Virus record (IMG/VR): IMGVR_UViG_3300020185_004854 | Span: 1-64,000 of that record | Strand: one strand, 5' to 3' | Source: a virus | Length of the DNA: 64,000 bases | Part shown: piece after piece, positions 76 through 59,161 of the stretch | How the letters are laid out: every line of letters starts with the position of its first letter | Numbering within the stretch: position 1 is the stretch's first letter | The notes under the pieces: generated by a model | Database searches by the model: none | What the model was told of the DNA's origin: nothing | The model's input: only the letters and a program-made list of their open reading frames with translations | Position numbers and translations under genes: made by a program

Positions 76-321
76 TTATAATGCTTTTGCTTGGGTTCTA
101 CCCGCTCCATCCATTTGCATCCTAAGAATGCTTGATTGCCCCTTGCGAGCAGTTGCTTGCTTGGCATAAGCAAACGCACTTGGGTCGCTAAAAGTCTGCA
201 TGACCATAGTTGATTTGTCAAGATAAACATTAAGACCCTTCTTGGGTATTGAGTTTGCCATCTTTTCTGCGCTTGCGATTGATTGTTTAATGCTATTTAG
301 GAATGCTTCTGATGTGTTCAT
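76..321 (-). CDS. Small orphan protein, 81 aa
   Basis: I do not recognise this protein. It is basic and Ser/Ala-rich with no membrane segment. Its start codon lies 7 nt after the -10 box of the promoter at 329-357, so the mRNA is predicted to have no real leader and no room for a Shine-Dalgarno site. It is the last gene on the left edge; a further TTGACA box at 6-11 (minus) suggests another gene begins just outside the window. Confidence 0.6.
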   Translation of the reverse strand: MNTSEAFLNSIKQSIASAEKMANSIPKKGLNVYLDKSTMVMQTFSDPSAFAYAKQATARKGQSSILRMQMDGAGRTQAKAL

Positions 322-328
322 GTTAGAT

Positions 329-357
329 ACATTAGATTAATTTTGATTGTCTGTCAA
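329..357 (-). promoter_or_regulatory. sigma70-like promoter, leaderless geometry
   Basis: TTGACA (352-357), 17-bp spacer, TAATGT (329-334). The predicted start site is about 322, one base before the ATG at 321. Confidence 0.6.
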
Positions 358-747
358 TAGTTTTTTTAAATTAAATTCGGGGTGATGTAATTCGTGATGG
401 CAATTATGACAGAGCAACTGACATTGATCAGCTTCCTTTAAAACTTTATTCCAATTATAATTTGCTATATTTCGCATCTCTACATTGAATAATTTTTTAT
501 CGGGATTTATATGGTGAAAAGTTAATGCAGTTAAGTTTTTTTTATAACCACATATTTCGCAACATCCACCTTTTAATTTGACTAAATTTAGTTTTCTTTT
601 TATTCCTCTTTTTCGTTGCCTTATGTAAGAAACATTGTTTAAATTTGAATTCTTATTTTTGCATTTTTGGGAGCAAAATTTTCTCTGCTGACCTTCTAAT
701 TGTATGTCGCATATAACACAATTTTTATAAACCCCTTTTTTTATCAT
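337..747 (-). CDS. HNH endonuclease with zinc-finger cysteines
   Basis: Probable HNH nuclease of the phage or homing type. The N-terminus has a CxxC...CSQKC zinc-ribbon pair (about residues 10-29). The C-terminal half carries CCEICG, the HHINP motif (about 98-102) and CHNCHHELHH, the usual ββα-metal core. Such genes are often selfish inserts in phages and this one sits alone between unrelated small genes. There is no intron evidence around it. The target is unknown. Confidence 0.8.
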   Translation of the reverse strand: MIKKGVYKNCVICDIQLEGQQRKFCSQKCKNKNSNLNNVSYIRQRKRGIKRKLNLVKLKGGCCEICGYKKNLTALTFHHINPDKKLFNVEMRNIANYNWNKVLKEADQCQLLCHNCHHELHHPEFNLKKLLTDNQN

Positions 748-776
748 AATTTATTTTGCTTTTATTTAAATATTTG

Positions 777-5124: not shown

Positions 5125-5603
5125 TTTTTTGCTATATATTTATTTAGATAATCGCCCGAAGCTTCCATGTTTTTTAAGTGACCTTCAAAAACAGGGTCAT
5201 CGTCTCCCATTAATTTTTGTCTATATTCTTCTGCCATATCAGAACCCCATTCATCAACTGATTCATCAGATAAATCACAAGCAATTTCTATATTAGTGAG
5301 ATTGTGAATAGCTTCATCTGCATAAACGCTTCCGTCTTTATTAAGACTTGGTTGTTTAAACCATTTGCGACACTTTTTATAAGATGCAATATGCCTATCA
5401 ATAATTTCAATATCATCCTTAATACAAGCCAAGCGATGTTTGAGTTGAAGATTTTCTAGCATTAATCTCTCTAAGTTATCCTTGTGAATTTTAGCTTCAA
5501 CTTCTTTTAAATAAGTATAAGCACCTTCTCGTTGCTTTTCCGCAAGAGTGGCATTTACTGAATCTTCGTAAGTTGGGCAATCGTCTCCTATTGTTTCTTT
5601 CAT
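5121..5603 (-). CDS. Orphan helical protein, 160 aa
   Basis: A mainly helical charged protein with a probable coiled coil at about residues 20-65. No domain recognised. It heads the operon 5603 to 3954; the promoter at 5609-5637 puts +1 at the start codon. Confidence 0.6.
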   Translation of the reverse strand: MKETIGDDCPTYEDSVNATLAEKQREGAYTYLKEVEAKIHKDNLERLMLENLQLKHRLACIKDDIEIIDRHIASYKKCRKWFKQPSLNKDGSVYADEAIHNLTNIEIACDLSDESVDEWGSDMAEEYRQKLMGDDDPVFEGHLKNMEASGDYLNKYIAKK

Positions 5604-5608
5604 TCTTT

Positions 5609-5637
5609 TACTTTATATTGATTGTTTCGAGTTGTCA
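5609..5637 (-). promoter_or_regulatory. sigma70-like promoter, leaderless geometry
   Basis: TTGACA (5632-5637), 17-bp spacer, TAAAGT (5609-5614); predicted start 5602-5603, coinciding with the ATG at 5603. Confidence 0.65.
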
Positions 5638-5644
5638 AATGTTT

Positions 5645-6840: not shown

Positions 6841-7128
6841 TTATGTTAATTTCACTCCTTGTTCATTTATTTCACCCCTAATAAACGCGCCAAAATCATC
6901 ATTGTTTAAATGTGATGTGTCGGGTGGAACAACACCAAACTCTCCATCCACTCCAAGTTCTTTGAGTCTATCGTTGAGTAGATTATTTAATTCGTAATTT
7001 AATTTATATAATTTATCTACAATTTTTTGAGCGGGTGCATATTCTGCTAACTCACTAATGCGAGTATTTAATCCACTCTCAACTTCAAATAAACTATTTA
7101 GCACTCTAATTTCTTCTGTTTTGTTCAT
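6841..7128 (-). CDS. Orphan protein, 95 aa
   Basis: Helical N-terminus (EEIRVLNSLFEVESGLNTRI) and a proline-containing acidic C-terminus. Not recognised. The promoter at 7135-7163 has its predicted +1 exactly at this ATG; the RaiA-like gene is the next gene of the same transcript. Confidence 0.6.
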   Translation of the reverse strand: MNKTEEIRVLNSLFEVESGLNTRISELAEYAPAQKIVDKLYKLNYELNNLLNDRLKELGVDGEFGVVPPDTSHLNNDDFGAFIRGEINEQGVKLT

Positions 7129-7134
7129 GTCTTT

Positions 7135-7163
7135 ATCTTATAAGTCTTGGTTTAAATTGTCAA
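7135..7163 (-). promoter_or_regulatory. sigma70-like promoter, leaderless geometry
   Basis: TTGACA (7158-7163), 17-bp spacer, TAAGAT (7135-7140), 6 nt, then ATG; predicted start 7128 is the A of the start codon. Confidence 0.7.
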
Positions 7164-12084: not shown

Positions 12085-12296
12085 GATATTTCTTTTTCTT
12101 TAATTAATTGCTCAAATATATCCCACATTTTTTGGTAGCGAGTATCGTGTAGTTGTTTCATTCCGATCAACATATTTAATAGTTGGTCTTCTGTATGCTT
12201 GATTGGGGAATCTCCAATCGCATATATTATTGTTTCTATGTCTTCGCCTATTTGGTGAAGGTTGCTCATTGAGTCTTCTAATTCAAATCTATTCAT
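12081..12296 (-). CDS. Small helical orphan protein, 71 aa
   Basis: Helical and acidic. Its ATG lies 8 nt after the -10 box at 12305-12310, so the transcript is predicted to be effectively leaderless. Confidence 0.55.
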   Translation of the reverse strand: MNRFELEDSMSNLHQIGEDIETIIYAIGDSPIKHTEDQLLNMLIGMKQLHDTRYQKMWDIFEQLIKEKEIS

Positions 12297-12304
12297 GGTA
12301 TTTA

Positions 12305-12332
12305 ACTATATGATTTTTTGATTACTTGTCAA
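12305..12332 (-). promoter_or_regulatory. sigma70-like promoter, near-leaderless
   Basis: TTGACA (12327-12332), 16-bp spacer, TATAGT (12305-12310); predicted start 12298, two bases before the ATG. Confidence 0.6.
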
Positions 12333-12336: not shown

Positions 12337-14001
12337 TTAATTACTTGCGCAGAAAGACTTATTGTTAACTTTTGTTGCGACTTCGTTATTGGGGAGTGTA
12401 ATTTTAACCCTAAACAACCTTCCTCCGTCAAAAGCTCTTAAGAGTTCTTGGTGGGTAATATTTGCATAGTCTAGGATTTTTTTTGTTAAACTATGACCTG
12501 AGTCTTCTAAGGCTCTTTTTAGATTTTGTTCACTTTCGGGATTTTTGCTTTCAACTCTTGGGTCATGAAAACGAGTTAAGCGATTACCCCCGCCTTTTTC
12601 ACCCTCTTCAAGAAGAATTTTCTGTATGTCGTTTCCCCTAGCTTGTACATCTTGATAACGCTCAAAAGAAAAAGTAGGAGTTGTTGAAATTCGTAGGGAA
12701 TTAATATATTTATCTTGAAAATAACATCTAATATCTGAATCTGACTCAATATTATTCGGGGCAATTGCATAATACAAATCAGTTTTAGTATTTTTTCTAT
12801 GAGAGGTAGCGTTAAAATGAGTAGCTATCTGAATATCCCTTATCAAGTCCCCAATAAACGGAAAATTTTCTATAGACACATCATTTAAATAAGCAGAATC
12901 TTTGTCAAAATTCGCTAAAAACTCAACAACACTTTGATCAACATAAATATTACAAGGTATTGGGAAGGGGTTTTTAATGTCTCTATACCCCATAAACCTT
13001 CCAAGTAAAGACTGAGCGATTGCTGACATAACTTTTCTATCTTCAATACAAAAGGCTATTCTTTTTTTCACAGAAGGATTAATTTTAATTCCCATTGCTA
13101 GACCTTGACAGGCTACTATCACCACAGGTTTTGAATATGATCTACGAATAGCGTGATCATAGGATTCTTTGATTTTACTACCTTCAATAGAGTTTACCGC
13201 ATAAGCTTCTATTTTTCCTTGATAGACATTATTTATCTTGTCAACTATTTGCTGACCATCATTAGCAGACTTAGAAACTCTTATTAAGCCTATTGGAGGG
13301 TCTTTCACGAATTCCTCTTTAAGAGTTCGATCTAAATCTTTAGAAATTAAGCGGTCTAGCTCCTCGCGTAACGATGGGTGGAGATTGCCATTTTGCAGTT
13401 TGTTTATCTCGTCCACAGGCTCTTTAAAAATTATGTTTTTATGATCTAAAAATTGTTGCGCGCCATAATACCCCTCCCCAACCTCTAAATCTAAAGCGCT
13501 AACTCTACCAAAAGTTTCTTCGTTTAAGTTGCCATGATTATGGAGGTGCATAAGTTGCCAATTAGTCGCTCCTTGGAAAATATAAAATGGTCTTCCCCAT
13601 TTTTGTTTCTTGTAAAATTTATTTATTAATATAATAGCTTTGTTGAATTTAGAATCGACTTTATGCCCGACATGAGCTTCATCAAAAACAAAAAATGGCG
13701 CGTAATCTGTAAATTCTCCGTTTTCCAAACGATTAACTAAATTAGATAATTTTTCGCATCCAACTTGTGGGTTTTTTTCTATAATCGCTCGTTCATTTTC
13801 ATCATACAAGTGATTATCGCTGACAACAGGAATAAAAAGCCCCGATCCCTCGTGCGCCATATGCTCTTGTAGGCATGGAGCAACGTCCGTTTTACCACTC
13901 TGACATGGTGCATTGAGTATAAGCGTGTGATACCCATCGTGATATCTGTTTAAAATTTTATTTACATTATTTTTTGTATTTTGAAAATATCTACTCATCA
14001 T
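12337..14001 (-). CDS. Superfamily 2 helicase/ATPase
   Basis: 554 aa. Walker A APCQSGKT (about residues 31-38), a DEAH box in FFVFDEAHVGHKVD (about 104-117), motif III-like FQGATN, and a C-terminal RecA-like lobe with GLAMGIKINPS and QSLLGRFMGY (motifs V and VI). It is phage-type and not close to a named E. coli helicase. The first ATG at 14001 is one base upstream of the predicted transcription start; the second ATG (13998) fits a 2-nt leader. A diverged copy of its first 35 codons lies at 27525-27659. Confidence 0.8.
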   Translation of the reverse strand: MMSRYFQNTKNNVNKILNRYHDGYHTLILNAPCQSGKTDVAPCLQEHMAHEGSGLFIPVVSDNHLYDENERAIIEKNPQVGCEKLSNLVNRLENGEFTDYAPFFVFDEAHVGHKVDSKFNKAIILINKFYKKQKWGRPFYIFQGATNWQLMHLHNHGNLNEETFGRVSALDLEVGEGYYGAQQFLDHKNIIFKEPVDEINKLQNGNLHPSLREELDRLISKDLDRTLKEEFVKDPPIGLIRVSKSANDGQQIVDKINNVYQGKIEAYAVNSIEGSKIKESYDHAIRRSYSKPVVIVACQGLAMGIKINPSVKKRIAFCIEDRKVMSAIAQSLLGRFMGYRDIKNPFPIPCNIYVDQSVVEFLANFDKDSAYLNDVSIENFPFIGDLIRDIQIATHFNATSHRKNTKTDLYYAIAPNNIESDSDIRCYFQDKYINSLRISTTPTFSFERYQDVQARGNDIQKILLEEGEKGGGNRLTRFHDPRVESKNPESEQNLKRALEDSGHSLTKKILDYANITHQELLRAFDGGRLFRVKITLPNNEVATKVNNKSFCASN

Positions 14002-14485
14002 ATTTAACTATATAGGTTTTAAACGATCTGTCAACTAAAATTTCTTGAATCATTGAATTAATAATTGTTTGACTTCCACCTGCAAGACCGCAAGAGATGC
14101 CGTAGGGGATGCCTAAAATCTTATTCTCGTCATCATGCTTACTTTGCCATTCAATGTGATCTGCGACATTTTCTAGCGCAACATAGAATGCTTCATAGTT
14201 AACTGCTCGTTCGCCTCCAATTTTATCTTGCGTATACATATTATATACCCCTTTAGTTTGAGTAGCATCAGCCCATGCAAAACTAAAGTTGCCTAAAATA
14301 TTTTTACCTTTCATCATTGCATGGCAATCAGCACTATAAGCTTGAGGATAAGTATGTTTAATTTGATGAGCAATACCCGCCCCCATTACATTATGCGTGT
14401 TGCAAGAATGAGCGATAAAGTCAAACCCATGAAAGTGCATCTTGAGCAAATTGCCATCTATAATTTTCAAATTACTTTTTGACAT
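13991..14485 (-). CDS. Macro-domain ADP-ribose hydrolase/phosphatase
   Basis: 164 aa, a single macro domain. Diagnostic segments are IIDGNLL, DFIAHSCNTHNVMGAGIAHQ (ligand-binding loop) and IPYGISCGLAGGSQ near the C-terminus, closest in style to Poa1p-type ADP-ribose-1''-phosphate phosphatases. It may remove ADP-ribose from macromolecules or recycle ADP-ribose phosphate. In a phage it could counter ADP-ribosylation-based defence such as DarT (inference). It overlaps the helicase start by 11 nt. Confidence 0.85.
   Translation of the reverse strand: MSKSNLKIIDGNLLKMHFHGFDFIAHSCNTHNVMGAGIAHQIKHTYPQAYSADCHAMMKGKNILGNFSFAWADATQTKGVYNMYTQDKIGGERAVNYEAFYVALENVADHIEWQSKHDDENKILGIPYGISCGLAGGSQTIINSMIQEILVDRSFKTYIVKYDE
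14007..14034 (-). promoter_or_regulatory. sigma70-like promoter, leaderless geometry
   Basis: TTGACA (14029-14034), 16-bp spacer, TATAGT (14007-14012); predicted start 14000. It lies within the 3' end of the macro-domain gene. Confidence 0.65.
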
Positions 14486-14879
14486 TTTGTTTTTTATTTT
14501 TTAGATAATCAGAAGCAATACCCTGCTCTTGATGCTGAAGGGCTACTTTTGAAGGATGACTGCTAAAACCTCTTGATGGAGCGTACCTCGGCTTTAAGGA
14601 AGCTATGAGCTTTCTACCTGCGTTGCTATATGGATTTGGTATCATACAATTTGGTTTTTTAGGGTGAATCATATACCCCTCTTTTATTAAATCAAACATT
14701 GGATGACCAATAGGTAAAACCCATTGACCATATTGATTTTTAATAGCTCCAAAAGTATTTTGAGTAACTTTGCAGGGGTTGTAAACCTCCCCCTTCACAA
14801 AGCCAAATTTTTCGGATTGTCGCTGACCAAAACAAAAAATGCTAAAAGTAAGCAAAATTATGTTAAATATTTTTTTCAT
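14472..14879 (-). CDS. Exported protein, 135 aa
   Basis: Starts with a typical signal peptide (MKKIFNIILLTFSIFCFGQ), probably cleaved after CFG. The mature part has two widely spaced Cys residues and no known motif. Probably periplasmic. Its promoter at 14889-14917 leaves about a 3-nt leader. Confidence 0.65.
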   Translation of the reverse strand: MKKIFNIILLTFSIFCFGQRQSEKFGFVKGEVYNPCKVTQNTFGAIKNQYGQWVLPIGHPMFDLIKEGYMIHPKKPNCMIPNPYSNAGRKLIASLKPRYAPSRGFSSHPSKVALQHQEQGIASDYLKNKKQNVKK

Positions 14880-14888
14880 AACAACTCC

Positions 14889-14917
14889 ACACTACAGCTA
14901 AAAAAAAGAAGTGTCAA
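14889..14917 (-). promoter_or_regulatory. sigma70-like promoter, near-leaderless
   Basis: TTGACA (14912-14917), 17-bp spacer, TAGTGT (14889-14894); predicted start 14882, three bases before the ATG at 14879. Confidence 0.65.
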
Positions 14918-15472: not shown

Positions 15473-16470
15473 GCGGTAATTGAATTCCCCCTCAAGAGAC
15501 GAATAGCTTTATCTTTAGCTTTAACTTCACATTCCCATTTAGCCTCTTTATTTGGGTCGATAGCAATATGCGGTGGAATGTTACCAAGGGCAAAATAATC
15601 TGCGTGTGATCTTGGTTTATCGGGCTTACCCTCTGACCAATGGAAGACAGGAGCAAGAAAGTTATTATCCCCAACCCCTTGGTTTACCCATGTATACGCA
15701 CAACGCTCTGCTTGGAATGAAACATTGTGATCTTCTGATGGGTTACAGAAATCGTGTAGGTTATCATAACAAACAGGAATATTTGCGCCAAATGTTTCAA
15801 ACAAATGGTCGCTAAATTTAATGCAGTTATCTACATTGAAGAAACCTTTGTCTTCATTTTCGATAGTCAAGCGTTTATAAACACCTTTCTCACACATAGA
15901 AAGATTACGAAAAAATCTAGTCGCAACTATCTCTAGTGTTTCATCCATTTTTGGAGTATAATTAATATGTATGTTCATTGGCGCGGTATGGTCTTGTGGA
16001 AGACCTAACATATCAAGAACACTTGCTTGAAAATTTAGCTCATTTATTGTACGAGCAACTTTATCTCTATCGGGAGATGCAAGAACATTAAATTGGTCGG
16101 GATGAGAACCCATGCTAACACCATGTTCTCTAGCAGTATCGCCTACTTTTTTTAATTCTTCTTGGATTTGCTTAATATCGGGCAACTCTTCAATATCAAT
16201 ACCCAAAGTTTCATCGGTAACGAGAGGAAAAAGAGCAGAACTAACACGATAATGCCCGATATTTGACTTAGCACAATGACCAACAATAGATTCAGTAACA
16301 ACAACATTATGCAAAATTCTATTAGATAACTCTTTAATTGTTTCATCTCTACCATCTTTTACACATAAATCATTGAATCGTTTACGAGTCATCGTGCGAA
16401 AAGAATATCTTTTTTTATCTTTTTCTTTAAGCTCTTCGCTAATACAAGTTAATCCTAAAATAGTTTTCAT
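15469..16470 (-). CDS. uvsE: UV damage endonuclease (UvdE/UvsE family)
   Basis: 333 aa, a TIM-barrel enzyme that nicks 5' of UV photoproducts. Recognisable family blocks: LGLTCISEELKEKDKKRYSF near the N-terminus, YRVSSALFPLVTDE, SMGSHPDQFNVLASPDRD (metal-binding His), NIHINYTP, LTIENEDKGF and the acidic/His pairs in VCYDNLHDFCNP. Full length for the family. It gives light-exposed phage DNA a one-enzyme repair entry independent of host UvrABC. The promoter puts +1 on its ATG. Confidence 0.9.
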   Translation of the reverse strand: MKTILGLTCISEELKEKDKKRYSFRTMTRKRFNDLCVKDGRDETIKELSNRILHNVVVTESIVGHCAKSNIGHYRVSSALFPLVTDETLGIDIEELPDIKQIQEELKKVGDTAREHGVSMGSHPDQFNVLASPDRDKVARTINELNFQASVLDMLGLPQDHTAPMNIHINYTPKMDETLEIVATRFFRNLSMCEKGVYKRLTIENEDKGFFNVDNCIKFSDHLFETFGANIPVCYDNLHDFCNPSEDHNVSFQAERCAYTWVNQGVGDNNFLAPVFHWSEGKPDKPRSHADYFALGNIPPHIAIDPNKEAKWECEVKAKDKAIRLLRGNSITA

Positions 16471-16476
16471 AAGTAA

Positions 16477-16505
16477 AGTTTATAATTTATAACATATAAT
16501 GTCAA
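16477..16505 (-). promoter_or_regulatory. sigma70-like promoter, leaderless geometry
   Basis: TTGACA (16500-16505), 17-bp spacer, TAAACT (16477-16482), 6 nt, then the uvsE ATG at 16470. Confidence 0.65.
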
Positions 16506-17469: not shown

Positions 17470-17689
17470 ATTTGGTTAAAGTATATTCTATTTTCGAGTC
17501 AATATCTTCAACATTATCCTCTTTAGGGATTTTGTCAAGAGGAATATCATCTTCCATTTCATTCCCCATCAATACCTGCAACCATTTTTTAGAAACAGGG
17601 ATTTTCGTTTTACATCCAACCCAATCACTTAGGTCTTCGTAGCTAATTTCTGTATATGGGCTATGTCCTTTTGGTCTTCCTCTTTTCAT
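17453..17689 (-). CDS. Small protein with AT-hook-like start, 78 aa
   Basis: Begins MKRGRPKGHSPYTEISYEDL; the RGRPKG core resembles an AT-hook minor-groove DNA-binding motif. The rest is acidic. It overlaps the RuvB-like gene by 17 nt and heads that transcript, so a role beside it in DNA processing is plausible. A 3-nt leader is predicted. Confidence 0.6.
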   Translation of the reverse strand: MKRGRPKGHSPYTEISYEDLSDWVGCKTKIPVSKKWLQVLMGNEMEDDIPLDKIPKEDNVEDIDSKIEYTLTKFDDEK

Positions 17690-17698
17690 AATAAATTA

Positions 17699-17727
17699 AT
17701 ATTATAATAAGAAATTTAGAATGTCAA
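17699..17727 (-). promoter_or_regulatory. sigma70-like promoter, near-leaderless
   Basis: TTGACA (17722-17727), 17-bp spacer, TAATAT (17699-17704); predicted start 17692, three bases before the ATG at 17689. Confidence 0.65.
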
Positions 17728-19446: not shown

Positions 19447-19872
19447 TCACATATTAACGCTCCACTCTTCAGAGTGACTCGTCCAATCTTTATATTTTTC
19501 ATCTCCTCCACGAATATACCAATCAGAATCAATAGTTAATTTTGAAGAAATTCCTCCACGAGGATTAAAAATCATTGTTAGTCTTAATCTATCGGGTTCA
19601 TAAACATCATCAAGATGATCAAAAAATATATTAATTAGCCTTTCGTAGGATACAACAATATCTCTCAAATTATAGACATATTCTTTTAAACTTTTTAACT
19701 CAATAATTTTATTTTTAGGGTAAAAACTAATATAAGCATTTGCAAAATCGGGTTGATTTTTGACCCCAAGGAAAGTAAATTCGGGGATTTTTACTTTTAT
19801 TTCATAAGAATTAGCGCTTGGGTTGGGCAAAGATTTTAGAAGCTTTTGATTTATTTGGTCATATTTTTTCAT
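19447..19872 (-). CDS. QueF-like T-fold protein lacking the catalytic Cys
   Basis: 141 aa. KIPEFTFLGVKNQPDFANAY, 'IIELKSLKEYVYNLRD' and 'MIFNPRGGISS' match 7-cyano-7-deazaguanine reductase (QueF). In QueF a Cys within 'FLCPKTGQPDF' forms the covalent link to preQ0; here Gly36 stands in that region and the whole protein contains no cysteine. The catalytic Asp is kept (Asp42), and the His-Glu pair is Tyr76-Glu77. It should not do QueF chemistry and may bind a deazapurine or do something new. No queC, queD, queE or dpdA is visible in the window. Confidence 0.75.
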   Translation of the reverse strand: MKKYDQINQKLLKSLPNPSANSYEIKVKIPEFTFLGVKNQPDFANAYISFYPKNKIIELKSLKEYVYNLRDIVVSYERLINIFFDHLDDVYEPDRLRLTMIFNPRGGISSKLTIDSDWYIRGGDEKYKDWTSHSEEWSVNM

Positions 19873-37536: not shown

Positions 37537-37556
37537 GTTTTTATTTTAGGGTTAAA

Positions 37557-38825: not shown

Positions 38826-38827
38826 AA

Positions 38828-39729: not shown

Positions 39730-39922
39730 AATCTAAATTGATATTATTTTTCTCGCAGTAAGCTACTGAGTAGCCAGCTTTAAAATTAAAACGAGCAATA
39801 AAGAATGCTAACCCGAAGATTGCGTAAGGCTCAACGCATTGGAACCCCATTTTATAAAAACTCAAAAAAGAAATTAAAATAAAAGGCATGAATTTATTTA
39901 AGGCGAAATTTAAAACAATCAT
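39722..39922 (-). CDS. Small membrane protein, 66 aa
   Basis: Two hydrophobic stretches ('ALNKFMPFILISFLSFYKMG', 'PYAIFGLAFFIARF') and a short polar tail. Function unknown. Confidence 0.5.
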   Translation of the reverse strand: MIVLNFALNKFMPFILISFLSFYKMGFQCVEPYAIFGLAFFIARFNFKAGYSVAYCEKNNINLDCE

Positions 39923-39925
39923 AAT

Positions 39926-40246
39926 TTAATAAGAGGTTATATAGTTTTTTGTCAGGTCAGGATTGAGAAGTCCTTTTCCAGAAGGGCTAAGAAAATCAGA
40001 ACTAGCAGTTACATTTGGGAATTCATCTAATAAAGGATTTAGGTAATCGCTGAAAACAAAATTTAAATTTTCTTTAACAGATAGTAAAACTTCATAAGAA
40101 AAAACAGAGTGCTGTTTATGAAAACCGCAATTAAAACTAGGAGAAACTAGAAATTTTGAATCGAGGAGTTTTAAATGAACATTATGCAATGTTTTTTTTG
40201 AAGTTGATGAGAACACAAGGTTGTATTGAGTGATGAAGTCTTTCAT
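39926..40246 (-). CDS. Orphan protein, 106 aa
   Basis: Start set at ATG 40246 because it overlaps the upstream stop as TAATG. β-rich with several Phe/Ser pairs. Not recognised. Confidence 0.5.
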   Translation of the reverse strand: MKDFITQYNLVFSSTSKKTLHNVHLKLLDSKFLVSPSFNCGFHKQHSVFSYEVLLSVKENLNFVFSDYLNPLLDEFPNVTASSDFLSPSGKGLLNPDLTKNYITSY

Positions 40247-40452
40247 TATTTTTTCCAAGAAGGTTTGTACGAATTAGGAAAAATGTCTTCAAAGTTTTTA
40301 GCGAAATCGCTAGTAACTTTTCTGGGACAATCTCCTTTTCCATGAGAGGTTGATTTGTTGAAAATAGAATCTGTATTGCAAGATCCGCCCTGCTTACGCT
40401 GATGTTTTTTAAAATTGTCAATAGCTGAGTTGACTTTACTTTGCTCTGTCAT
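40246..40452 (-). CDS. Small orphan protein, 68 aa
   Basis: Hydrophilic, with two Cys (GGSCNTDS, GDCPRK). Its promoter places +1 on the ATG. Not recognised. Confidence 0.55.
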   Translation of the reverse strand: MTEQSKVNSAIDNFKKHQRKQGGSCNTDSIFNKSTSHGKGDCPRKVTSDFAKNFEDIFPNSYKPSWKK

Positions 40453-40458
40453 GATTAC

Positions 40459-40487
40459 AATATATTAAAATTAGTACAAAAAGTCAA
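40459..40487 (-). promoter_or_regulatory. sigma70-like promoter, leaderless geometry
   Basis: TTGACT (40482-40487), 17-bp spacer, TATATT (40459-40464), 6 nt, then ATG at 40452. Confidence 0.6.
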
Positions 40488-41926: not shown

Positions 41927-42091
41927 CTATTTTCCATTAAACTTTTCTTTTAATTCGAGAATAATTTTAATTTTATCTTCTTTACTTAAAGAGGCATATG
42001 ATTTTTTAAATCTGCGCAAAAGTCTTTTTTGCTCAGGGTGACCTTCGTACCCCATGATATTTTTAATTTCTTTTAATTTTGATTTATTCAT
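41927..42091 (-). CDS. Small basic protein, 54 aa
   Basis: Reads MNKSKLKEIKNIMGYEGHPE and continues with a Lys-rich helical tail ending KEKFNGK. Its ATG overlaps the GMP reductase stop by 4 nt. Not recognised. Confidence 0.5.
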   Translation of the reverse strand: MNKSKLKEIKNIMGYEGHPEQKRLLRRFKKSYASLSKEDKIKIILELKEKFNGK

Positions 42092-43059
42092 GTTTTAATA
42101 TATTCTGTATTATAAAGTGAGGTTAATGCATTTCCACCAGAATAACTAATTGAGCTCTGTAAATCCTGAGTGACTTCACGTAACTTTTCTTCGATAGTCA
42201 TATTATTACAAGGGATATTGGTGAGCTTTCCCTCTATGTTGTTTTTGTGTCCCTTACTCTCTGCACTGGCAGAGCCAAAATAAGCTTTATAAAAAGTATT
42301 ATGAACACTACTGTGGACAGCAGGGCTGTCAACGCACGCGGCAAAGAGCCCCCCTGCCATAACCATTTTCGACCCAGCAACAATAGCTTTTGCAATATCT
42401 CCGTTGTGCTTTACACCTCCGTCAGCAATGATTGGGATTTCTTCCCCGTTTCCATTAAATTCTCCAGAGTATAACCCAGAACAGTTCTGAACACAAGTGA
42501 ACATAGGAACTGTGAATCCTGTTTTACTTTTTGTTGTGCATGGAGACCCTTGACCTATTCCAACTTTCACTATGTCAGCACCCCAAGAAGCTAAAGCTTT
42601 GACAGCTTCAGGAGTCGCTACGTTGCCAGCGATAATTTTTGTGTTAGGTAAGTTTTCTTTTATAAATGCTATCATTCTTTTCATTTTTATTGAATGACCA
42701 TGCGCTATATCTATCGTTAGGAAATCTAATCTTAATTTATTAGTTCTTAATTTATTTATAATTGTTTTGTCTTTATCTTGAACCCCCACGCTAAAAGATA
42801 TTGTTTTCCAATTTTGAAGGTTAGCTTGTTCTATTTGTGCATATATGTCATTGTTGAACCTATGCATGATATAAAAGTAATCATTTTCACTCATCCAGCT
42901 TGATAAGTCTAGGTTTATAACCGATTTCATGTTAGCGGGAATGATTGGTAGTAAAAACTTTTTACCAAATAAATCTAAAGAAGGGTCGCAATCCAATCTA
43001 CTATTAACTTCGCTATACGTAGGCATTAAAGCCACGTCAGAATATTTTAAATATTTCAT
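42088..43059 (-). CDS. guaC: GMP reductase
   Basis: 323 aa IMPDH/GMPR TIM barrel without a CBS insert. 'DVALMPTYSEVNSR', 'PIIPANMKSVINLDLSSWMS', 'KIIAGNVATPEAVKAL', the catalytic loop 'VKVGIGQGSPCTTKSKTG' with its Cys, 'PIIADGGVKHNGDIAKAIVA' and 'GHKNNIEGK' flap. These features fit GuaC better than GuaB. It reduces GMP to IMP with NADPH, shifting purines toward adenine, useful for an AT-rich phage (inference). Confidence 0.87.
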   Translation of the reverse strand: MKYLKYSDVALMPTYSEVNSRLDCDPSLDLFGKKFLLPIIPANMKSVINLDLSSWMSENDYFYIMHRFNNDIYAQIEQANLQNWKTISFSVGVQDKDKTIINKLRTNKLRLDFLTIDIAHGHSIKMKRMIAFIKENLPNTKIIAGNVATPEAVKALASWGADIVKVGIGQGSPCTTKSKTGFTVPMFTCVQNCSGLYSGEFNGNGEEIPIIADGGVKHNGDIAKAIVAGSKMVMAGGLFAACVDSPAVHSSVHNTFYKAYFGSASAESKGHKNNIEGKLTNIPCNNMTIEEKLREVTQDLQSSISYSGGNALTSLYNTEYIKT

Positions 43060-44980: not shown

Positions 44981-46026
44981 GTTGATTTGCTATTGTTATT
45001 ATAAGAACTGGGGTATTCTTTAGACCAGTCAACTAAAAATTTAGTGCGATCTATCCACGCTTTAAACGTGCCATACTTCACGTTTAAACTTTTCGCCGCT
45101 AAAGTTCTAATATTATTATTTTCAATAAGGGCTTTTTTAATTTTAGGTATTAAAGATTCGCGATAAGCGTTTTTCTGTTTAGATTTTGCCGCTTTTAAGT
45201 TTCTGATCCTCTTCTCTTCAGCCTGTTCGCTTTTATCAAAAAATATTGAACTTTTTTGCGCTCTTCTAGCCATAACTTTTTTTTGCGTGATTGAGCGTTG
45301 CTCCCTAGAAACTCTAGGAGGTACAGGTTTTTCCATGGGGTATTCACTATTCCACCAATCTCTGGTTTCGCATCTAGCCATTAACTTATACAAGGATGAT
45401 CTACCAATATTGAGATATTCAGAGGCTTTTTTGCGGCTATTATTATTCAAGACCAACGCGTTGATTATTTCGTTTTTGGTTTTTCGCATTTCTTGTTTGT
45501 CCCATTTTACCCATTCACCACCAGTCCAAGCCAAACCTTTTCTTTCATGAAGTTTTTTATAAATGCCTTTTCGGTTTTTGTGAGACCAGTTTTCGCAACC
45601 TTTTTTAAAACCTATATTTTTGCAATCTTTAGCCTTTGCTTTGTTAAATCTATTAGTAAAACCTTTTTTCCGAAGAAGTTCCTTTTTAAAAAGGAAATTA
45701 TTGATATTTGGAAAGGAAGAGTTTCGAATGTTTTCCCAATCAGAAATGGATAAAACTCTATTAGTCTTTGTGTTTTTATATTTTTTATGAAGCATATACC
45801 CTAGCACAGCTTTAACTTTAACAGACTGATCGTTTTCAAGAGACTTCCCTACAAGAATGGATTTTGCTAGAGCGTAAGATTTAGCTTTAACGAAAGTGAC
45901 AAAATCTTTTTCTGAATTATCACTGTACTTTTCCGTATAATACATTAACCAATACTGAGTGAAGGAAAATATCTTTTTTCGAAATGATTTTTGACAATTA
46001 GCAACTTTTCTTCCGCGTTTTTTCAT
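44953..46026 (-). CDS. DNA-binding protein with two Fis-like HTH repeats
   Basis: Start set at ATG 46026 because the longer GTG frame would begin inside the promoter. 357 aa, strongly basic. Two similar HTHs, 'IINALVLNNNSRKKASEYLN' and 'IKKALIENNNIRTLAAKSLN', each followed by 'xxY/FKxxxxR'. Likely a phage transcription regulator acting with the sigma-like gene next to it. Confidence 0.65.
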   Translation of the reverse strand: MKKRGRKVANCQKSFRKKIFSFTQYWLMYYTEKYSDNSEKDFVTFVKAKSYALAKSILVGKSLENDQSVKVKAVLGYMLHKKYKNTKTNRVLSISDWENIRNSSFPNINNFLFKKELLRKKGFTNRFNKAKAKDCKNIGFKKGCENWSHKNRKGIYKKLHERKGLAWTGGEWVKWDKQEMRKTKNEIINALVLNNNSRKKASEYLNIGRSSLYKLMARCETRDWWNSEYPMEKPVPPRVSREQRSITQKKVMARRAQKSSIFFDKSEQAEEKRIRNLKAAKSKQKNAYRESLIPKIKKALIENNNIRTLAAKSLNVKYGTFKAWIDRTKFLVDWSKEYPSSYNNNSKSTWKTVNKSV

Positions 46027-46037
46027 AATAGATCTGT

Positions 46038-46066
46038 AGTCTATCACAAGGTTGTAAAAATGTCAA
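46038..46066 (-). promoter_or_regulatory. sigma70-like promoter
   Basis: TTGACA (46061-46066), 17-bp spacer, TAGACT (46038-46043); predicted start 46031, five bases before the ATG at 46026. Confidence 0.65.
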
Positions 46067-47089: not shown

Positions 47090-47470
47090 ATGGAAAAGAA
47101 AAGTACAATTTTTTGTGATATAGATGGGACGATTTTTAAATACCGAGAGTTTGAAAATTATAAGAAAGAAAAGTGCCAAGTCCTCCCAGGAGTATTAAAT
47201 AAATTAAATAAATGGAGAGAAGATGGTCACATGATAATACTCACCACGGCAAGACCTGAAAACTTAAGAGAAGATACGTTGGAAGAATTAAGCATAAGCA
47301 ATGTCCCATACGACAGATTAATAATGGGAATCGAGAGAGGTGTTAGGGTTTTAATTAACGATAAAGATCCGAAATTAAAACAACCAAAAGCTATAGCGAT
47401 AAACCTTAAAAGAGACGAGGGTATGATTTTCGATAAAATAGAAATAGATTTGAAAGCTAATTCTCTTTGA
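47090..47470 (+). CDS. HAD-superfamily phosphatase
   Basis: 126 aa, minimal HAD. Motif I 'IFCDIDGTIFKYREFE' (nucleophile Asp in DxDGT), motif II 'IILTTARPEN', motif III/IV 'RLIMGIERGVRVLINDKDPK'. Close to small phosphatases found in capsule or LPS clusters and to PNKP phosphatase halves. Two nt separate it from the kinase fusion, so they may act on the same substrate. Confidence 0.85.
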   Translation: MEKKSTIFCDIDGTIFKYREFENYKKEKCQVLPGVLNKLNKWREDGHMIILTTARPENLREDTLEELSISNVPYDRLIMGIERGVRVLINDKDPKLKQPKAIAINLKRDEGMIFDKIEIDLKANSL

Positions 47471-47982
47471 TGATTTTAGATAAACAAATTAAAAATTTCC
47501 CAGAGTATTTTTACGGCGTTATCGAAATATCGAAGGGTTCTAGCAACAAATACGAATACAATAAAGATTTCAATATGATTGAATTTGATAGAAAACTATC
47601 GAGTTCAATGACGTACCCAGGAAATTACGGATTCGCGCCTAAGACTTTAGCTGAGGATGGAGACCCTGTAGATTTAATAATGCTAAGCACTGACCCCATT
47701 ATTCAATCAGGAGCACTGGTGAAATTAAAACCCTTAGCCTTACTTGATATGATAGATTGCGGATCTATTGATAACAAAATCATTGCGACAGTACTAACGG
47801 AGGAGAATATAAATGATATTGATGACGTTTGCCCAATGTTCTTGAGGAAAACTGAAGACTTTTTTGCAAACTACAAAAATTTAGATAATGAAGAAGTGAG
47901 CTTAGGAAACTGGGGAAACGCGGACGCCGCAAAAGAATATTTAAAAAGCCGATATGAAATTGGTGGACGTGGCGGGAGTTGA
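47470..47982 (+). CDS. ppa: Inorganic pyrophosphatase (family I)
   Basis: 170 aa from ATG 47470 (TGATG overlap with the HAD gene). 'GVIEISKGSSNKYEYNKDFN', 'SSSMTYPGNYGFAPKTLAED' and 'GDPVDLIML' are the PPase substrate and metal-binding signature. It hydrolyses PPi released by nucleotidyl transfer or DNA synthesis. Its last eight codons lie on the antisense strand of the tmRNA 3' end. Confidence 0.88.
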   Translation: MILDKQIKNFPEYFYGVIEISKGSSNKYEYNKDFNMIEFDRKLSSSMTYPGNYGFAPKTLAEDGDPVDLIMLSTDPIIQSGALVKLKPLALLDMIDCGSIDNKIIATVLTEENINDIDDVCPMFLRKTEDFFANYKNLDNEEVSLGNWGNADAAKEYLKSRYEIGGRGGS

Positions 47983-48399
47983 ACCCGCGTCTTTAAACCT
48001 TCAAAATACACACCTACAAGTTTAGTTAGTTTTTTTTAAAGTTATGATACTAACATCCAACTACTTGTTTTAATTATTCACTCAAATTTGAGGCCCCCGA
48101 ATACTCAGTGGTGCAGTTTTTAAAACTAGTAAAATTTTATCTGTTTTTGCAGATGTCGTCCTCGTATTCTAAATATCTGCGTCAATAAAAACGAGGGGGT
48201 AGCTTTAAGCTACCATCTCAAGCTCTTCAGCTTGCTCGAATTGCACGAGGGAATCGTACTCTTCAGTAGCAGCTTCAAGAAGCTCTTTAATGCTATAATA
48301 ACCTTCGCCATATACAGCTTTGTGTCTTGATATCGGAGCCAGACACACCTCCGACTTGCAGTATATAGATCCAACTTAAATCAAATCCAGTACACGCCC
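47961..48399 (-). ncRNA. ssrA: tmRNA (one-piece), with an unusually long tag reading frame
   Basis: All main tmRNA parts are visible. The acceptor 5' strand GGGCGTG (48399-48393) pairs with CACGTCC before the encoded CCA (47961-47963). The T-arm is GCGGG-TTCAACT-CCCGC, followed by the acceptor 3' strand. Helix 2 is CTGCAAG (48361-48355) with CTTGTAG near the 3' end. Pseudoknot 1 pairs TCGGAG/CTCCGA and GTGTCT/AGACAC (48322-48354). The tag frame stops at TAA 48205-48207 in the loop of hairpin GGTAGC/GCTACC, as in helix 5. Counting from GCT (48318) it has 37 codons, from GGC (48309) 34; it begins AVYGEGYYSIKEL and ends QAEELEMVA. No smpB is visible, so host SmpB is presumably used. Confidence 0.95.
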
Positions 48400-54186: not shown

Positions 54187-54932
54187 ACCGCAACCTCCTT
54201 CCAGCTTTCAAAGCAAAATTCTCGACTACCAAAACCTTCCAAGTTTGGCCGAGATAAAGAAGTGTTTCGAGAGAAACCTCTGTTACATATACACTTATAA
54301 GTTTGCAACGCATCTGAATCAGCGCGGTTTTTATAAAAAATACTCTTAGCCGATTCTTTTTTGTAACCGTGCTCCTCGCAGAAATTATTAACTATGTTAG
54401 TGAGCATAAAATCAACAGGTAAGTTATTGTTTTCAAGAAAAAAGAGCGGATCGGTAAACGAAAAATCTGGGATGCAATTAGAAAAAGAAAAACTATTTTG
54501 ATACAAAAAAGAATCGTAAAAAGGTATCGCGAGCATTAAATTTTTTTCATTCCAAAGTTTTTTTAAACATTCAAAATTACCTAATCCATCTAAGTCGCAA
54601 TAAATTGAACTATAGATTAAATTTAAATCTTTACACCCATCATCGTTCTTGGCAAAAATAATAATCTTATGAAGCGACTTAGGATCATCTTTGGACTCAC
54701 AGCTAATTTTAAATCTTAACCCAAAAATTAAATGAATATTTTGATCTAAACAATTTTTCCTAGCTTCCAAAAAACCTGTCGGGGCATCTTCAACTAAAAC
54801 GAGTTTGTCGAGGCTATTATCTATTAAAATATCAAAAATAGAATCAGCGCTAGCATCAGAAGAGGCGTTCGGCGGATTTAGAGTTAAGATACTTTTTCCT
54901 ATGCTATAATGAGACTTGAATAAAGGTAACAT
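54183..54932 (-). CDS. DnaE PHP-domain protein (split N-terminus)
   Basis: 249 aa. 'LFKSHYSIGKSILTLNPPNA' (degenerate PHP motif I), 'KLVLVEDAPTGFLEARKNCL' (cf. AITD.gnl.g...F), 'IHLIFGLRFKI' (cf. iiG.E), and the final 'DSDALQTYKCICNRGFSRNT...FGSREFCFES' matching the segment of DnaE just after PHP. It ends where the polymerase gene picks up. Metal ligands look mostly lost, so a structural role is likely. Confidence 0.78.
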   Translation of the reverse strand: MLPLFKSHYSIGKSILTLNPPNASSDASADSIFDILIDNSLDKLVLVEDAPTGFLEARKNCLDQNIHLIFGLRFKISCESKDDPKSLHKIIIFAKNDDGCKDLNLIYSSIYCDLDGLGNFECLKKLWNEKNLMLAIPFYDSFLYQNSFSFSNCIPDFSFTDPLFFLENNNLPVDFMLTNIVNNFCEEHGYKKESAKSIFYKNRADSDALQTYKCICNRGFSRNTSLSRPNLEGFGSREFCFESWKEVAV

Positions 54933-54943
54933 AAATTACAAAC

Positions 54944-54972
54944 ATTCTACTAGAAAAGAAAGTAAAAGTCAA
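54944..54972 (-). promoter_or_regulatory. sigma70-like promoter of the polymerase operon
   Basis: TTGACT (54967-54972), 17-bp spacer, TAGAAT (54944-54949); predicted start 54937, five bases before the PHP gene ATG at 54932. Confidence 0.6.
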
Positions 54973-54975: not shown

Positions 54976-55284
54976 TTATTTTAATGATTTTAGGATGGAT
55001 ATTATCTGTTCGAAATTAGAATAAGAAATTTTATCTACATTTATATTGGCTTTTTTAGGAGCAATTAGAAAACCGTTTTCAATTTCACCATCTTTTATTA
55101 AATAAGAAATAAAGTCATGGGCTCCATATTCTTTAAGCCATCTCCAGTACAAAGATCTTGTTCCTGGTCTGCATCTTAATAATATATCCTCAAAGACATA
55201 GGTCTTTGCATATAAAGTAACATCTCTAAATGGATAGATTTCGCTGGGAGGTTCACAAAGATTAGAGTCGATGATTAATTGCAT
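54976..55284 (-). CDS. Orphan protein, 102 aa
   Basis: ATG 55284 (MQLIIDSNLCEPPS) preferred over the GTG at 55299. Mixed α/β with 'LLRCRPGTRSLYWRWLKEYG'. Not recognised; it lies between the nuclease and PHP genes. Confidence 0.55.
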   Translation of the reverse strand: MQLIIDSNLCEPPSEIYPFRDVTLYAKTYVFEDILLRCRPGTRSLYWRWLKEYGAHDFISYLIKDGEIENGFLIAPKKANINVDKISYSNFEQIISILKSLK

Positions 55285-55299
55285 CGATATATAATACAC

Positions 55300-56527: not shown

Positions 56528-57584
56528 AATTTGGTAAATATTTAATGTTATTGAATAGGTTTTTAGAAATCTTATTTTCTGAGAATAAAATTTTTGAAGA
56601 AGTATAAATTTGATTGCATATTTTACTATTAGAATTGTAGTTTATATTTTTTTTGACACTCCAGTTTTCAAAATCAGAATCAGTCATGTCTCCAAAATCA
56701 TTTTTAGTAGGCAAACATATGTTTAATTTATCAGAACCAAAAAAATTTAAAAGTTTTAAAAAAGATTTAATAGCAGACTCCCTACCCACATTTCGAGACT
56801 TTTTATTGTCATTATTTAAGGAAATGCAAATGTTATCGGGGGATAGCCCCATTATTATAGAGCATAAGTGTGGAGATATAGAAGTTCCAAAAGTAACCAA
56901 GCAATTATCATAGCCGTGTTCGTACAACGCAAGCATATCACCAACGCTTTCAACTAAAATAAGTTCTTTAGATCTTTGGATGGAGTCTAATATAGGAAAA
57001 GAATTGGATTGAGCATCAAATGCATAAAGCGGATAAGCCCACGAGCTTTTCTTGCCCATATGCTTCCATTTAGGACGATTACTAGAGTTTAACATGTCTC
57101 TACCAGCAACTCCATGAATTTTTTGAAATTTATTAAAAACTGGAAAAACATATCTCTGATACATTGACCCAGCGGTACACATTCCTGAGTGAAAAAATTT
57201 TAAAGTTTCATTGCTAATCTTTTTTTTGTTATAAAATTGATAATGAGGTAAGAGATTTTTGAATTCCTGGGAGTTAAAGACTGTTTCTGATTGTAAATTA
57301 ACAGGCTGCTGTTCTGACTGAGGGGAAACATTGAGGAAACCTGGATCTGATAAGATTGATTTAGCGGAATCTTTGCCAACTGTTTTCTCCACCAAAACAG
57401 AAAAAGGCATGTAAGAATCTCCTGCAACATAATCCTTCCACACCCCACTGCTTTTGAAGATTTGAACAGCTTGAGGGTTGTCCCCAGATCGATAGACGGC
57501 AGTAGATTGCCAGTAATCACCCCTATCGATTAAGGGATACTCTAAATTGCGCAAAACACTTTCTATTTTCTCAGAACTATCCAT
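56520..57584 (-). CDS. DnaG-type primase (TOPRIM)
   Basis: 354 aa. N-terminal 'GVWKDYVAGDSYMPFSVLVE' resembles the fold before the primase core, but no zinc-finger Cys set is present. 'YVFPVFNKFQKIHGVAGRDM', then TOPRIM: 'ELILVESVGDMLALYEHGYD' (Glu) and 'NICISLNNDNKKSRNVGRES' (a D-x-N variant of DxD). No helicase-binding domain is evident. The next gene is DnaB, one base apart. Confidence 0.85.
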   Translation of the reverse strand: MDSSEKIESVLRNLEYPLIDRGDYWQSTAVYRSGDNPQAVQIFKSSGVWKDYVAGDSYMPFSVLVEKTVGKDSAKSILSDPGFLNVSPQSEQQPVNLQSETVFNSQEFKNLLPHYQFYNKKKISNETLKFFHSGMCTAGSMYQRYVFPVFNKFQKIHGVAGRDMLNSSNRPKWKHMGKKSSWAYPLYAFDAQSNSFPILDSIQRSKELILVESVGDMLALYEHGYDNCLVTFGTSISPHLCSIIMGLSPDNICISLNNDNKKSRNVGRESAIKSFLKLLNFFGSDKLNICLPTKNDFGDMTDSDFENWSVKKNINYNSNSKICNQIYTSSKILFSENKISKNLFNNIKYLPNYE

Positions 57585-59123
57585 TTAAATTGGTAGTTCG
57601 CCATCTAACGAATTTGGAGATCGATCTAATTCATTTATGTTTTGACCATGAGCTAAAACGTCAACAAGATCTCCACAGTCTTTAATTTTAAAGTTATTGA
57701 AATCAAAATTAATATAATTTCTTTTCATGGATCCATCAGGCATTTCAACTAAGTTTTGTAACCTAGCCGTGTCAGAGCCATGATTTCTTGCTTTTTCAAT
57801 TTTCATAAGGTGTCTACCACAAAAAATAGGATCTGATTGTAATTCATCTATAGTTTTATTTCTTAAAATGAGCATGTGTGAGCAGAATTGCTTAATTCTG
57901 TGACTAAGAGAGATTACACTCTCGTCATCTACAACAGCATCGGAGTTTCTATTGCCTACAGTACCCACCCTATTAGCTTGAACACTAGTCATTAATGAGA
58001 CCATAGGACGACCTTCAAACACTAAATCTCTTTGGATTAATTTTTTAAACTTATCTACCATTTCACCTACAATTTGATACTCTGTTTTAAATTTACCACC
58101 AGATTCAAAGCTTGATTTAATGTAGTCAAAGTTAATAACTAACTGGTTACCCCTACCGACTTGCGAGTAGTAATACCTTTTAATATAACTTATAATTTCA
58201 TCAGTGCATTTACCTCCTACATTATAATAATCATATATGATCTCTCCATTATTCATTTTCTCTAAAGCGGATTCAACGCGCGTTTTATAATTAGAATCGT
58301 CAGCCCAATTCCCACTCTCAATTAAATAAAGAGGAACCTGAGAGTAGGAAGCTAACATCCTGAAAGCGATTTCCTCTTCACTCATTTCTCCATTATCTAA
58401 ATGTAAGACTGGTATTTTATGCTTTCCAGCTACACACATACAATAATGAGTTGTGAATTGAGTTTTTCCCACCCCTGAGCCCGCGCAGACAATAGTTATA
58501 TGCCCACCCTTGTTTAGGGATCCACAAAGCATGTTTAAGCTTCGATGTGGACCTTCTGGACCAGTATCCAGAAAAATTGATCTATCATTCGCTCTTTCAT
58601 AAACTAAGTTTGGTAAAATTGAAAATAAATTTACAGCTTTCCCTGAGGAGTTTTCATATAATTCAATTTTTTCATTAAAAATTGAGTCGCACTTTTCAAT
58701 AATTTCATCATAGGAAGATGTTGAGTCAAGTGTCGACATAGACTTGGATATTTTCTCGCCAGTTAATTTTAATTCACGACGAACGCTTAATAATTTTATG
58801 ACTTCAGCTGAATTTTTAAAAACATCTTCTGAGATGTTTGAAGATAATAAATCAATAGACTCTAAATAATCTGGAGTTTTAATATTATCTTGGAAGGATA
58901 TGTTTAAAGAGGATAAATGATGAGAGAGTAAGGATATGTCAACGATTTTTTGCTCGTCTAGAAGAGCTTTAATTTTTAAAAAAATTGTTTTATGGACGAC
59001 AGAATCTTTATTGTAAAAATCATCACCGCTTACAAAATGAGAAATCTCCGAAACGAATAAATCACTGTAAGACAACATGCCAGCAAGGAAAATCCTTTCT
59101 TGTTCAAAATCAAATAGTTTCAT
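57585..59123 (-). CDS. dnaB: Replicative DNA helicase (DnaB family)
   Basis: 512 aa. DnaB-like N-terminal helical domain ('FEQERIFLAGMLSYSDLFVS'), then a RecA-type motor: Walker A 'IVCAGSGVGKTQFTTHYC', motif II 'QLVINFDYIKSS', motif III 'SLMTSVQANRVG', and 'VDDESVISLSHRIKQFCSHM' near the Arg finger region. It heads the operon with primase, nuclease and polymerase. Confidence 0.9.
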   Translation of the reverse strand: MKLFDFEQERIFLAGMLSYSDLFVSEISHFVSGDDFYNKDSVVHKTIFLKIKALLDEQKIVDISLLSHHLSSLNISFQDNIKTPDYLESIDLLSSNISEDVFKNSAEVIKLLSVRRELKLTGEKISKSMSTLDSTSSYDEIIEKCDSIFNEKIELYENSSGKAVNLFSILPNLVYERANDRSIFLDTGPEGPHRSLNMLCGSLNKGGHITIVCAGSGVGKTQFTTHYCMCVAGKHKIPVLHLDNGEMSEEEIAFRMLASYSQVPLYLIESGNWADDSNYKTRVESALEKMNNGEIIYDYYNVGGKCTDEIISYIKRYYYSQVGRGNQLVINFDYIKSSFESGGKFKTEYQIVGEMVDKFKKLIQRDLVFEGRPMVSLMTSVQANRVGTVGNRNSDAVVDDESVISLSHRIKQFCSHMLILRNKTIDELQSDPIFCGRHLMKIEKARNHGSDTARLQNLVEMPDGSMKRNYINFDFNNFKIKDCGDLVDVLAHGQNINELDRSPNSLDGELPI

Positions 59124-59132
59124 GCAAGAAGA

Positions 59133-59161
59133 ATCATAGCATACTGAGAGTTATTTGTCAA
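59133..59161 (-). promoter_or_regulatory. sigma70-like promoter of the replication operon
   Basis: TTGACA (59156-59161), 17-bp spacer, TATGAT (59133-59138); predicted start 59126, three bases before the dnaB ATG at 59123. Confidence 0.65.

Follow-up and report, generated by a model that had tools for sequence, protein, structure and literature searches.

In a large lineage of uncultivated, AT-rich phages, promoters appear to stand so near their genes that the RNA would begin on, or next to, the start codon itself. The stretch of DNA under study, hereafter the window, comprises positions 1-64000 of the 68,543-bp IMG/VR viral contig IMGVR_UViG_3300020185_004854 (the remaining 4.5 kb is L169), and many of its genes, which lie almost all on the minus strand, are preceded by a sigma70-type promoter, here termed class I, whose -10 box ends a few nucleotides before the ATG. 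On the sequence evidence set out below we are confident that class I promoters produce leaderless mRNAs. The wider reading, to which we give about even chances, is that in this lineage leaderless mRNAs have come to carry much of the expression of operon-leading genes, early as well as late, and that they arise from two promoter types unrelated to each other, one of host type (CTTGAC/TAnnnT) and one clade-specific (GTGTA(A/T)A, class II) and read by the phages' own sigma-like factor, both spaced so as to put +1 on the AUG.

Class I is defined as TTGAC(A/T)-N16-17-TAnnnT, with the distance counted from the end of the -10 box to the ATG. In this strict form it stands 5-11 nucleotides (nt) before the ATG of 16 minus-strand genes, and at exactly 6 nt in seven of them, so that the promoter pattern reported at gene starts by the first-pass annotation is real; the plus strand of the window holds no class I site of such spacing. 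The seven sites at 6 nt (all sites given here are on the minus strand) precede the 87-amino-acid (aa) gene at 1631 (TTGACA-N17-TAATGT, 1631-1666; ortholog in L181), the gene for a SprT-like protein of 167 aa at 2166 (TTGACA-N17-TAGTGT, 2166-2201; ortholog in L181), the genes at 5603 (TTGACA-N17-TAAAGT, 5603-5638; 160 aa; orthologs in L181 and L184) and 7128 (TTGACA-N17-TAAGAT, 7128-7163; 95 aa, the -35 box lying inside the upstream gene; ortholog in L181), the gene for a UvdE endonuclease of 333 aa at 16470 (TTGACA-N17-TAAACT, 16470-16505; kept at 6-7 nt in five relatives), a 44-codon open reading frame (ORF) at 27659 (TTGACT-N17-TATGAT, 27659-27694) and a 68-aa gene at 40452 (TTGACT-N17-TATATT, 40452-40487; ortholog in L186, likewise at 6 nt). 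Nearby spacings are found at 14001 (5 nt; TTGACA-N16-TATAGT, 14001-14034; 554 aa, the start being either ATG of an ATGATG pair), 321 (7 nt; TTGACA-N17-TAATGT, 321-357; 81 aa; orthologs with the promoter at similar spacing in L216, L192 and L184), 12296 (8 nt; TTGACA-N16-TATAGT, 12296-12332; 71 aa; orthologs in L181 and L191), 24318 (8 nt; TTGACT-N17-TATTGT, 24318-24355; 57 aa; orthologs in L185, L216 and L172), 14879 (9 nt; TTGACA-N17-TAGTGT, 14879-14917; 135 aa; ortholog in L184), 17689 (9 nt; TTGACA-N17-TAATAT, 17689-17727; 78 aa; orthologs in L185, L216 and L172) and 59123 (9 nt; TTGACA-N17-TATGAT, 59123-59161; a DnaB-like helicase of 512 aa). Two promoters absent from the earlier list stand at 11 nt, before a helix-turn-helix protein of 357 aa at 46026 (TTGACA-N17-TAGACT, 46026-46066; ortholog in L186) and a PHP-like protein of 249 aa at 54932 (TTGACT-N17-TAGAAT, 54932-54972).

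The first-pass annotation had named 17 starts with a close -10 box, and 14 of them have it at 5-9 nt in the strict form. Six of the starts that it placed at exactly 6 nt are borne out, and 5603, which it had grouped with the near spacings, belongs with them; the seventh, 37187 (TTGATT-N16-TATTAT, 6 nt, 37187-37221), is doubtful, its -35 box lying in the T-run of an intrinsic terminator and its closest ortholog having no promoter. The near spacings stand except for 7652, which was rejected because no TAnnnT -10 is present and the box is missing from its orthologs, and 21990 (TTGATT-N16-TATAAT, 7 nt, 21990-22025), before a methyltransferase gene, is a weak candidate. A site at 10653 was also discarded, as it lies inside a gene and is followed by 33 codons only. 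The ORF at 27659 is probably a gene fragment: its promoter and 34 codons are kept in L185 with 97% aa identity. Over 34 aa the ORF (27659-27525, minus strand) is 97% identical to the N-terminus of a gene in G001 that is orthologous to the 554-aa protein at 14001-12337 (minus strand), and it looks like either a promoter with a 5' gene piece that recombination left behind or a paralog that has decayed.

Could an AT-rich genome simply yield TTGAC and TAnnnT near start codons by chance? Several TTGAC-TAnnnT sites do lie inside genes with no ATG nearby. For the chance test a strict site was taken as TTGAC, a spacer of 16-18 and TAnnnT, and the ATG had to open an ORF of at least 40 codons. The minus strand of the window holds 29 such sites, of which 14 are followed by an ATG at 5-9 nt, where random positions would give 0.86 (maximum 6 in 20,000 trials), and seven by one at exactly 6 nt, where they would give 0.17 (maximum 4 in 20,000 trials). 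At 21 of the sites an ATG lies no more than 40 nt away, and the distances are 5, 6, 6, 6, 6, 6, 6, 6, 7, 8, 8, 9, 9, 9, 11, 11, 22, 27, 28, 31 and 39 nt (p = 8e-9 for 5-9 nt), with no strict site in the window at 12-21 nt. This empty interval resembles the two-mode leader lengths reported for Lactococcus cremoris, which are under 5 nt or around 40 nt, with none of 4-14 nt (PMC10986495).

The same holds beyond the window. In the neighbourhood of the relatives' polymerase gene (80 loci), an ATG stands 5-9 nt from 135 of 457 class I sites, compared with 1-8 for scrambled -35 motifs; motifs that overlap the real one by a base shift, or that alter the -10 box only, gave higher counts than the other scrambles, as expected. 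A scan for TTGAC-N18-TANNNT-N5..9-ATG, compared with the reversed pattern, gave 340 matches against 14 in 23 long relatives (3.01 Mb), every one of the 23 having some, although the density of class I differs within the clade from 2 matches in 81 kb to 25 in 59 kb. In 13 unrelated phages (3.00 Mb; including T4, phiKZ, P-SSM2, HTVC008M and crAss001) the counts were 40 and 28, so that the enrichment over control phages which had been proposed as a check is indeed found. Thermus phage phiYS40, the positive control, reached a level similar to that of the relatives: over 152 kb it gave 11 matches, mainly with the 6-nt spacing, and a single reversed one. P23-45 gave zero class I matches. With counts near background in AT-rich control phages, and with the ortholog conservation described below, chance is already refuted as a general explanation and we allow it next to no weight, although the single sites at 7652 and 37187 may be due to it. 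In environmental viral contigs, few of them related, the ATG opens an ORF, among the matches listed, in 109 of 135 cases at 6 nt but in 36 of 119 at 14 nt (L241-L360 and L361-L479, respectively). The 6-nt pattern thus looks enriched in environmental contigs mostly outside the clade, from which it follows that leaderless promoters may be commoner than thought, and may be widespread, among phages.

Conservation among orthologs bears both on the promoter and on the start codon. Upstream of the PHP-like gene at 54932 the TTGAC promoter is present in 54 of 61 distinct ortholog upstream regions, and upstream of the DnaB-like gene at 59123 in 32 of 42, whereas for operon-internal neighbours (protease, primase, nuclease, polymerase, IMP dehydrogenase and exonuclease) it is present in 0-3 of 25-67. 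Most of the window's promoters keep their arrangement in at least one relative, and orthologs retain promoter, spacing and N-terminus while the rest of the sequence has diverged. A different possibility is that genuine promoters stand before an ATG that is not used, translation starting farther downstream, behind an ordinary leader with a Shine-Dalgarno sequence. It is true that start codons were chosen mechanically and that some genes, such as that at 14001, offer an ATGATG pair. Yet the N-termini align at the ATG in all 61 members of the PHP-like family and in 204 of 263 ortholog pairs overall, and in leaderless-type ortholog pairs a third-position excess of substitutions is seen from codons 2-5 on (80 against 54 and 18 there), that is, codon-position bias from codon 2. 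Together with the pyrimidine signature at the A of the ATG, considered next, this makes a downstream start very improbable; aligned N-termini and codon-position constraint indicate that translation truly begins at the ATG and that the promoter is conserved.

A survey of gene starts over 1,702 crude gene calls, from the window contig together with seven relatives, shows where the RNA would begin. Starts with a strict promoter number 75 at 6 nt, 26 at 7, 12 at 8 and 17 at 9, and then about two per position; at 6 nt the start codon is ATG in 84, GTG in 5 and TTG in none. The class I logo consists of an A-tract, C (76%), TTGAC, A/T, 17 nt and TAnnnT, and so has the TTGACA-like -35, the 16-18 bp spacer and the TATAAT-like -10 of a sigma70-type promoter, with the -10 placed such that +1 falls on or beside the start codon. 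Bacterial transcription usually starts at an A (+1) that follows a pyrimidine (-1). In 88% of the 6-nt genes (p = 2.6e-10) and 87% of the 7-nt genes a C or T directly precedes the ATG, against 54% of 548 other starts, which argues that the A of the ATG is +1. Finally, a Shine-Dalgarno-like 4-mer precedes 5 of 143 class I genes and 1 of 107 class II genes, as against 138 of 872 closely spaced genes, and this near absence calls for another route of initiation. The leaderless reading is thus supported by spacing, pyrimidine at -1, scarcity of Shine-Dalgarno sites, codon constraint from codon 2 and aligned ortholog N-termini.

The short distances could also reflect nothing but compaction, with gaps trimmed to the length of a promoter, genes translated mostly from read-through messages and the leaderless message incidental. 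Many promoters do overlap the end of the upstream gene, as at 7128 and 14001, but 111 of the 143 class I genes have a gap of at least 30 nt and the same spacing, and the rarity of Shine-Dalgarno sites would leave such genes in need of some other initiation route; we therefore hold compaction by itself to be decidedly unlikely. Certain points do weigh against leaderless mRNAs from class I. Some genes stand at 9-11 nt, which leaves a leader of 2-5 nt, and some may also be transcribed from promoters upstream. Start sites and translation mode are inferred from a sequence pattern, and both a polymerase start 6-7 nt past the -10 box and good ribosome uptake of leaderless mRNA are assumed for the host. 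The starts themselves are crude, mechanical ORF picks on contigs that are fragments, and the related sequences are mutually dependent. Moreover, no homolog of IF3, S21 or MazF, with their possible effect on leaderless translation, was found in the clade, so that any help these phages may give to leaderless translation would be of another kind, or the host already permits it.

The second class emerged when words upstream of the remaining genes were counted de novo, which brought out GTGTAA and GTGTAT; it had not been noticed by the earlier reader. Counted by the distance from the end of GTGTA to the start codon, 58 genes have the element at 9 nt and 28 at 10 nt, while most other distances have about 0-5; GTGTA(A/T)A has no -35 box upstream, and control words unrelated to GTGTA show no comparable distance peak. 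In the 80 relatives the counts at 9, 10, 11 and 12 nt are 57, 61, 38 and 35, and the element is found at start codons throughout the clade (L170-L225); no peak at these distances is seen in T4, P-SSM2, HTVC008M, phiR1-37 or phiKZ, nor in a set of mostly unrelated environmental contigs. At 9 nt the base before the start is T or C in 89% (p = 1.8e-10) compared with 54% elsewhere, and at 10 nt this signature is lacking, as expected if the transcription start stays at a fixed distance from GTGTA. Within the window, again on the minus strand, examples precede the genes at 59421 (9 nt, 59421-59435; 84 aa), 55284 (10 nt, 55284-55299; 102 aa), 36325 (11 nt, 36325-36341; 69 aa), 33291 (10 nt, 33291-33306; 114 aa) and 23199 (9 nt, 23199-23213; 129 aa). 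That class II shares in the explanation, as a leaderless promoter read by a phage sigma factor, we consider slightly better than an even proposition.

The two classes head largely different genes: class I alone occurs in 35 of the 64 ortholog clusters that have a promoter of either kind, class II alone in 27, and both in two. In the relative G013 class I lies at 11-103 kb and 177-181 kb, and class II also spans 104-176 kb, a region that holds terminase, tail and tail-fibre genes, so that class II stands before structural genes, among others; a further homolog of the UvdE gene (16470) in G013 has a class II promoter instead of class I. It is from gene content only (terminase-adjacent and tail genes) that class II is suggested to be a late promoter, and the early versus late timing of the two classes is inferred on the same basis.

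As to which factor reads which class, class I resembles an ordinary housekeeping promoter and is most likely read by a sigma70-type RNA polymerase, that of the host. The window also encodes a sigma-like protein of 178 aa with a sigma70 region 2 (25575-26111, minus strand; Pfam PF04542, E=4.7e-7; sigma factor in PHROG), which has weak matches to factors of the extracytoplasmic function (ECF) type; an initial reading of it as gp55-like was dropped for that reason. A second sigma-like family of 232-280 aa, with a conserved cysteine cluster and 55-59% identity, occurs in long contigs (L193:8553-9338 (+), L223:10215-10958 (+), L179:55-897 (-), L209:1100-1909 (+) and L199:17317-18015 (+)); in G013 a member lies near the terminase gene, and this protein is our candidate for the reader of class II and a putative late sigma factor. 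Since one or two proteins matching sigma70 region 2 are present in each of the 10 contigs tested, both classes might be read by phage-encoded sigma-like factors and none by the host's. The near-canonical sigma70 consensus of class I with its upstream A-tract, and the different ortholog groups headed by the two classes, speak against this, and it seems to us unlikely.

The preferred scheme, in which the host factor would read class I, can be summarised as follows. A sigma70-type RNA polymerase, most likely the host's, would bind (C)TTGAC(A/T)-N17-TAnnnT and begin the RNA at, or some 0-4 nt from, the A of the ATG, giving messages without a Shine-Dalgarno leader. Ribosomes would take the 5'-terminal AUG directly, in the manner of whole 70S particles on known leaderless mRNAs; a message with AUG at its very start recruits complete 70S ribosomes and depends less on initiation factors (PMC9031893), and phiYS40 is reported to shift the levels of IF2 and IF3 in favour of leaderless messages (PMC3594737). 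Class I would head short operons of early and replication genes, the downstream genes being reached by translational coupling or by weak Shine-Dalgarno sites of their own, and class II would do the same for structural and other genes, probably through a phage-encoded sigma-like protein.

The window has a G+C content of 30-34% and encodes a DnaE-type DNA polymerase, a DnaB-like helicase, a Toprim primase, an ATP-dependent protease, a transfer-messenger RNA (tmRNA) and a tRNA-Thr, a gene set which indicates that the contig is probably part of a larger phage. Relatives found by their polymerase (59-86% identity) are on contigs of up to 211 kb, and in the collection no close cultured phage was found, the best matches having about 25-33% identity. 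A polymerase-alignment scan of bacterial genomes for the host returned probably mis-binned phage contigs and unrelated DnaE genes only; the relatives L089, L090 and L091 come from assemblies that carry the labels Flavobacteriaceae, Lokiarchaeota and Woesebacteria, a probable result of mis-binning, and give no host. The tRNA-Thr matches plasmids and phages from several phyla, and the tmRNA has no matching phage record. The tmRNA gene (47961-48399, minus strand) has a predicted tag ending in EMVA, as in L010 and L083; in several other relatives the tags end in ALAA, which is either real divergence or a mis-framed prediction. Models for the T4-type capsid, Terminase_6C and the tail sheath gave no match, the capsid model being silent in the control genomes too. 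Among other genes are one for a protein with an arginyl-tRNA-protein transferase C-terminal domain (ATE_C; 22029-22829, minus strand), unexpected for a phage, and metabolic genes for QueF-like (19447-19872), IMP dehydrogenase (42088-43059) and FAD-dependent oxidoreductase (34878-36080) proteins, all on the minus strand, and inorganic pyrophosphatase (47467-47982, plus strand). A block rich in sugar genes (~27700-40000, minus strand; a nucleotidyltransferase/isomerase fusion, epimerase, glycosyltransferases and methyltransferases) perhaps serves glycan decoration of the virion or of DNA.

If the reading is correct, a widespread phage lineage starts many operon-leading genes by an AUG-first route, almost without Shine-Dalgarno leaders, and offers many natural, evolutionarily replicated cases of how leaderless messages compete for ribosomes during infection. 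For annotation, a promoter plus 6 nt equals the start codon, a simple rule for locating true gene starts in such genomes, where short early genes of this sort may be misplaced or overlooked by gene finders that depend on ribosome-binding sites.

Use of leaderless mRNAs on this scale by a phage had been thought unusual, but there is a precedent in the large Thermus phage phiYS40, most of whose middle and late mRNAs are reported to be leaderless (PMC3594737). phiYS40 shares with the clade the class I pattern recorded in the scan above, mostly at 6 nt; it differs in that the phylum of its host abounds in leaderless genes, whereas the clade is AT-rich and uncultivated, has no evidence linking it to Thermus, and carries the extra GTGTA class. 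The lambda cI mRNA from PRM is likewise a phage message starting at AUG, but the case is limited to one repressor gene and is no genome-wide scheme. Cluster O mycobacteriophages have SigA-like leaderless promoters, but only three have been described, all predicted, and the host is itself rich in leaderless genes (PMC4351075). Among bacteria, TANNNT some 12 bp before the start is an accepted in silico mark of leaderless genes (PMC3160421) and has been tested experimentally in Deinococcus (PMC12340547), and the TANNNT-led genes of Actinobacteria and Deinococcus-Thermus resemble class I in having the -10 end 6-7 bp from the start (PMC3160421, PMC12340547). Unlike these, class I has in addition a strong, conserved CTTGAC -35 box, and is found in phages. 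The late promoters of T4, recognised by the sigma factor gp55, consist of TATAAATA without a -35 box and stand before structural genes. Class II resembles them in promoter layout, as a -10-only element before structural genes, but has another sequence, and T4 does not have the GTGTA spacing. Leaderless phage messages as such are therefore already known, from lambda cI, phiYS40 and the cluster O mycobacteriophages; what is new, as far as the searched literature shows, is how widely they extend through an AT-rich, uncultivated lineage of phages, the fact that promoter and spacing are conserved together, and the second, clade-specific class, whose geometry is the same.

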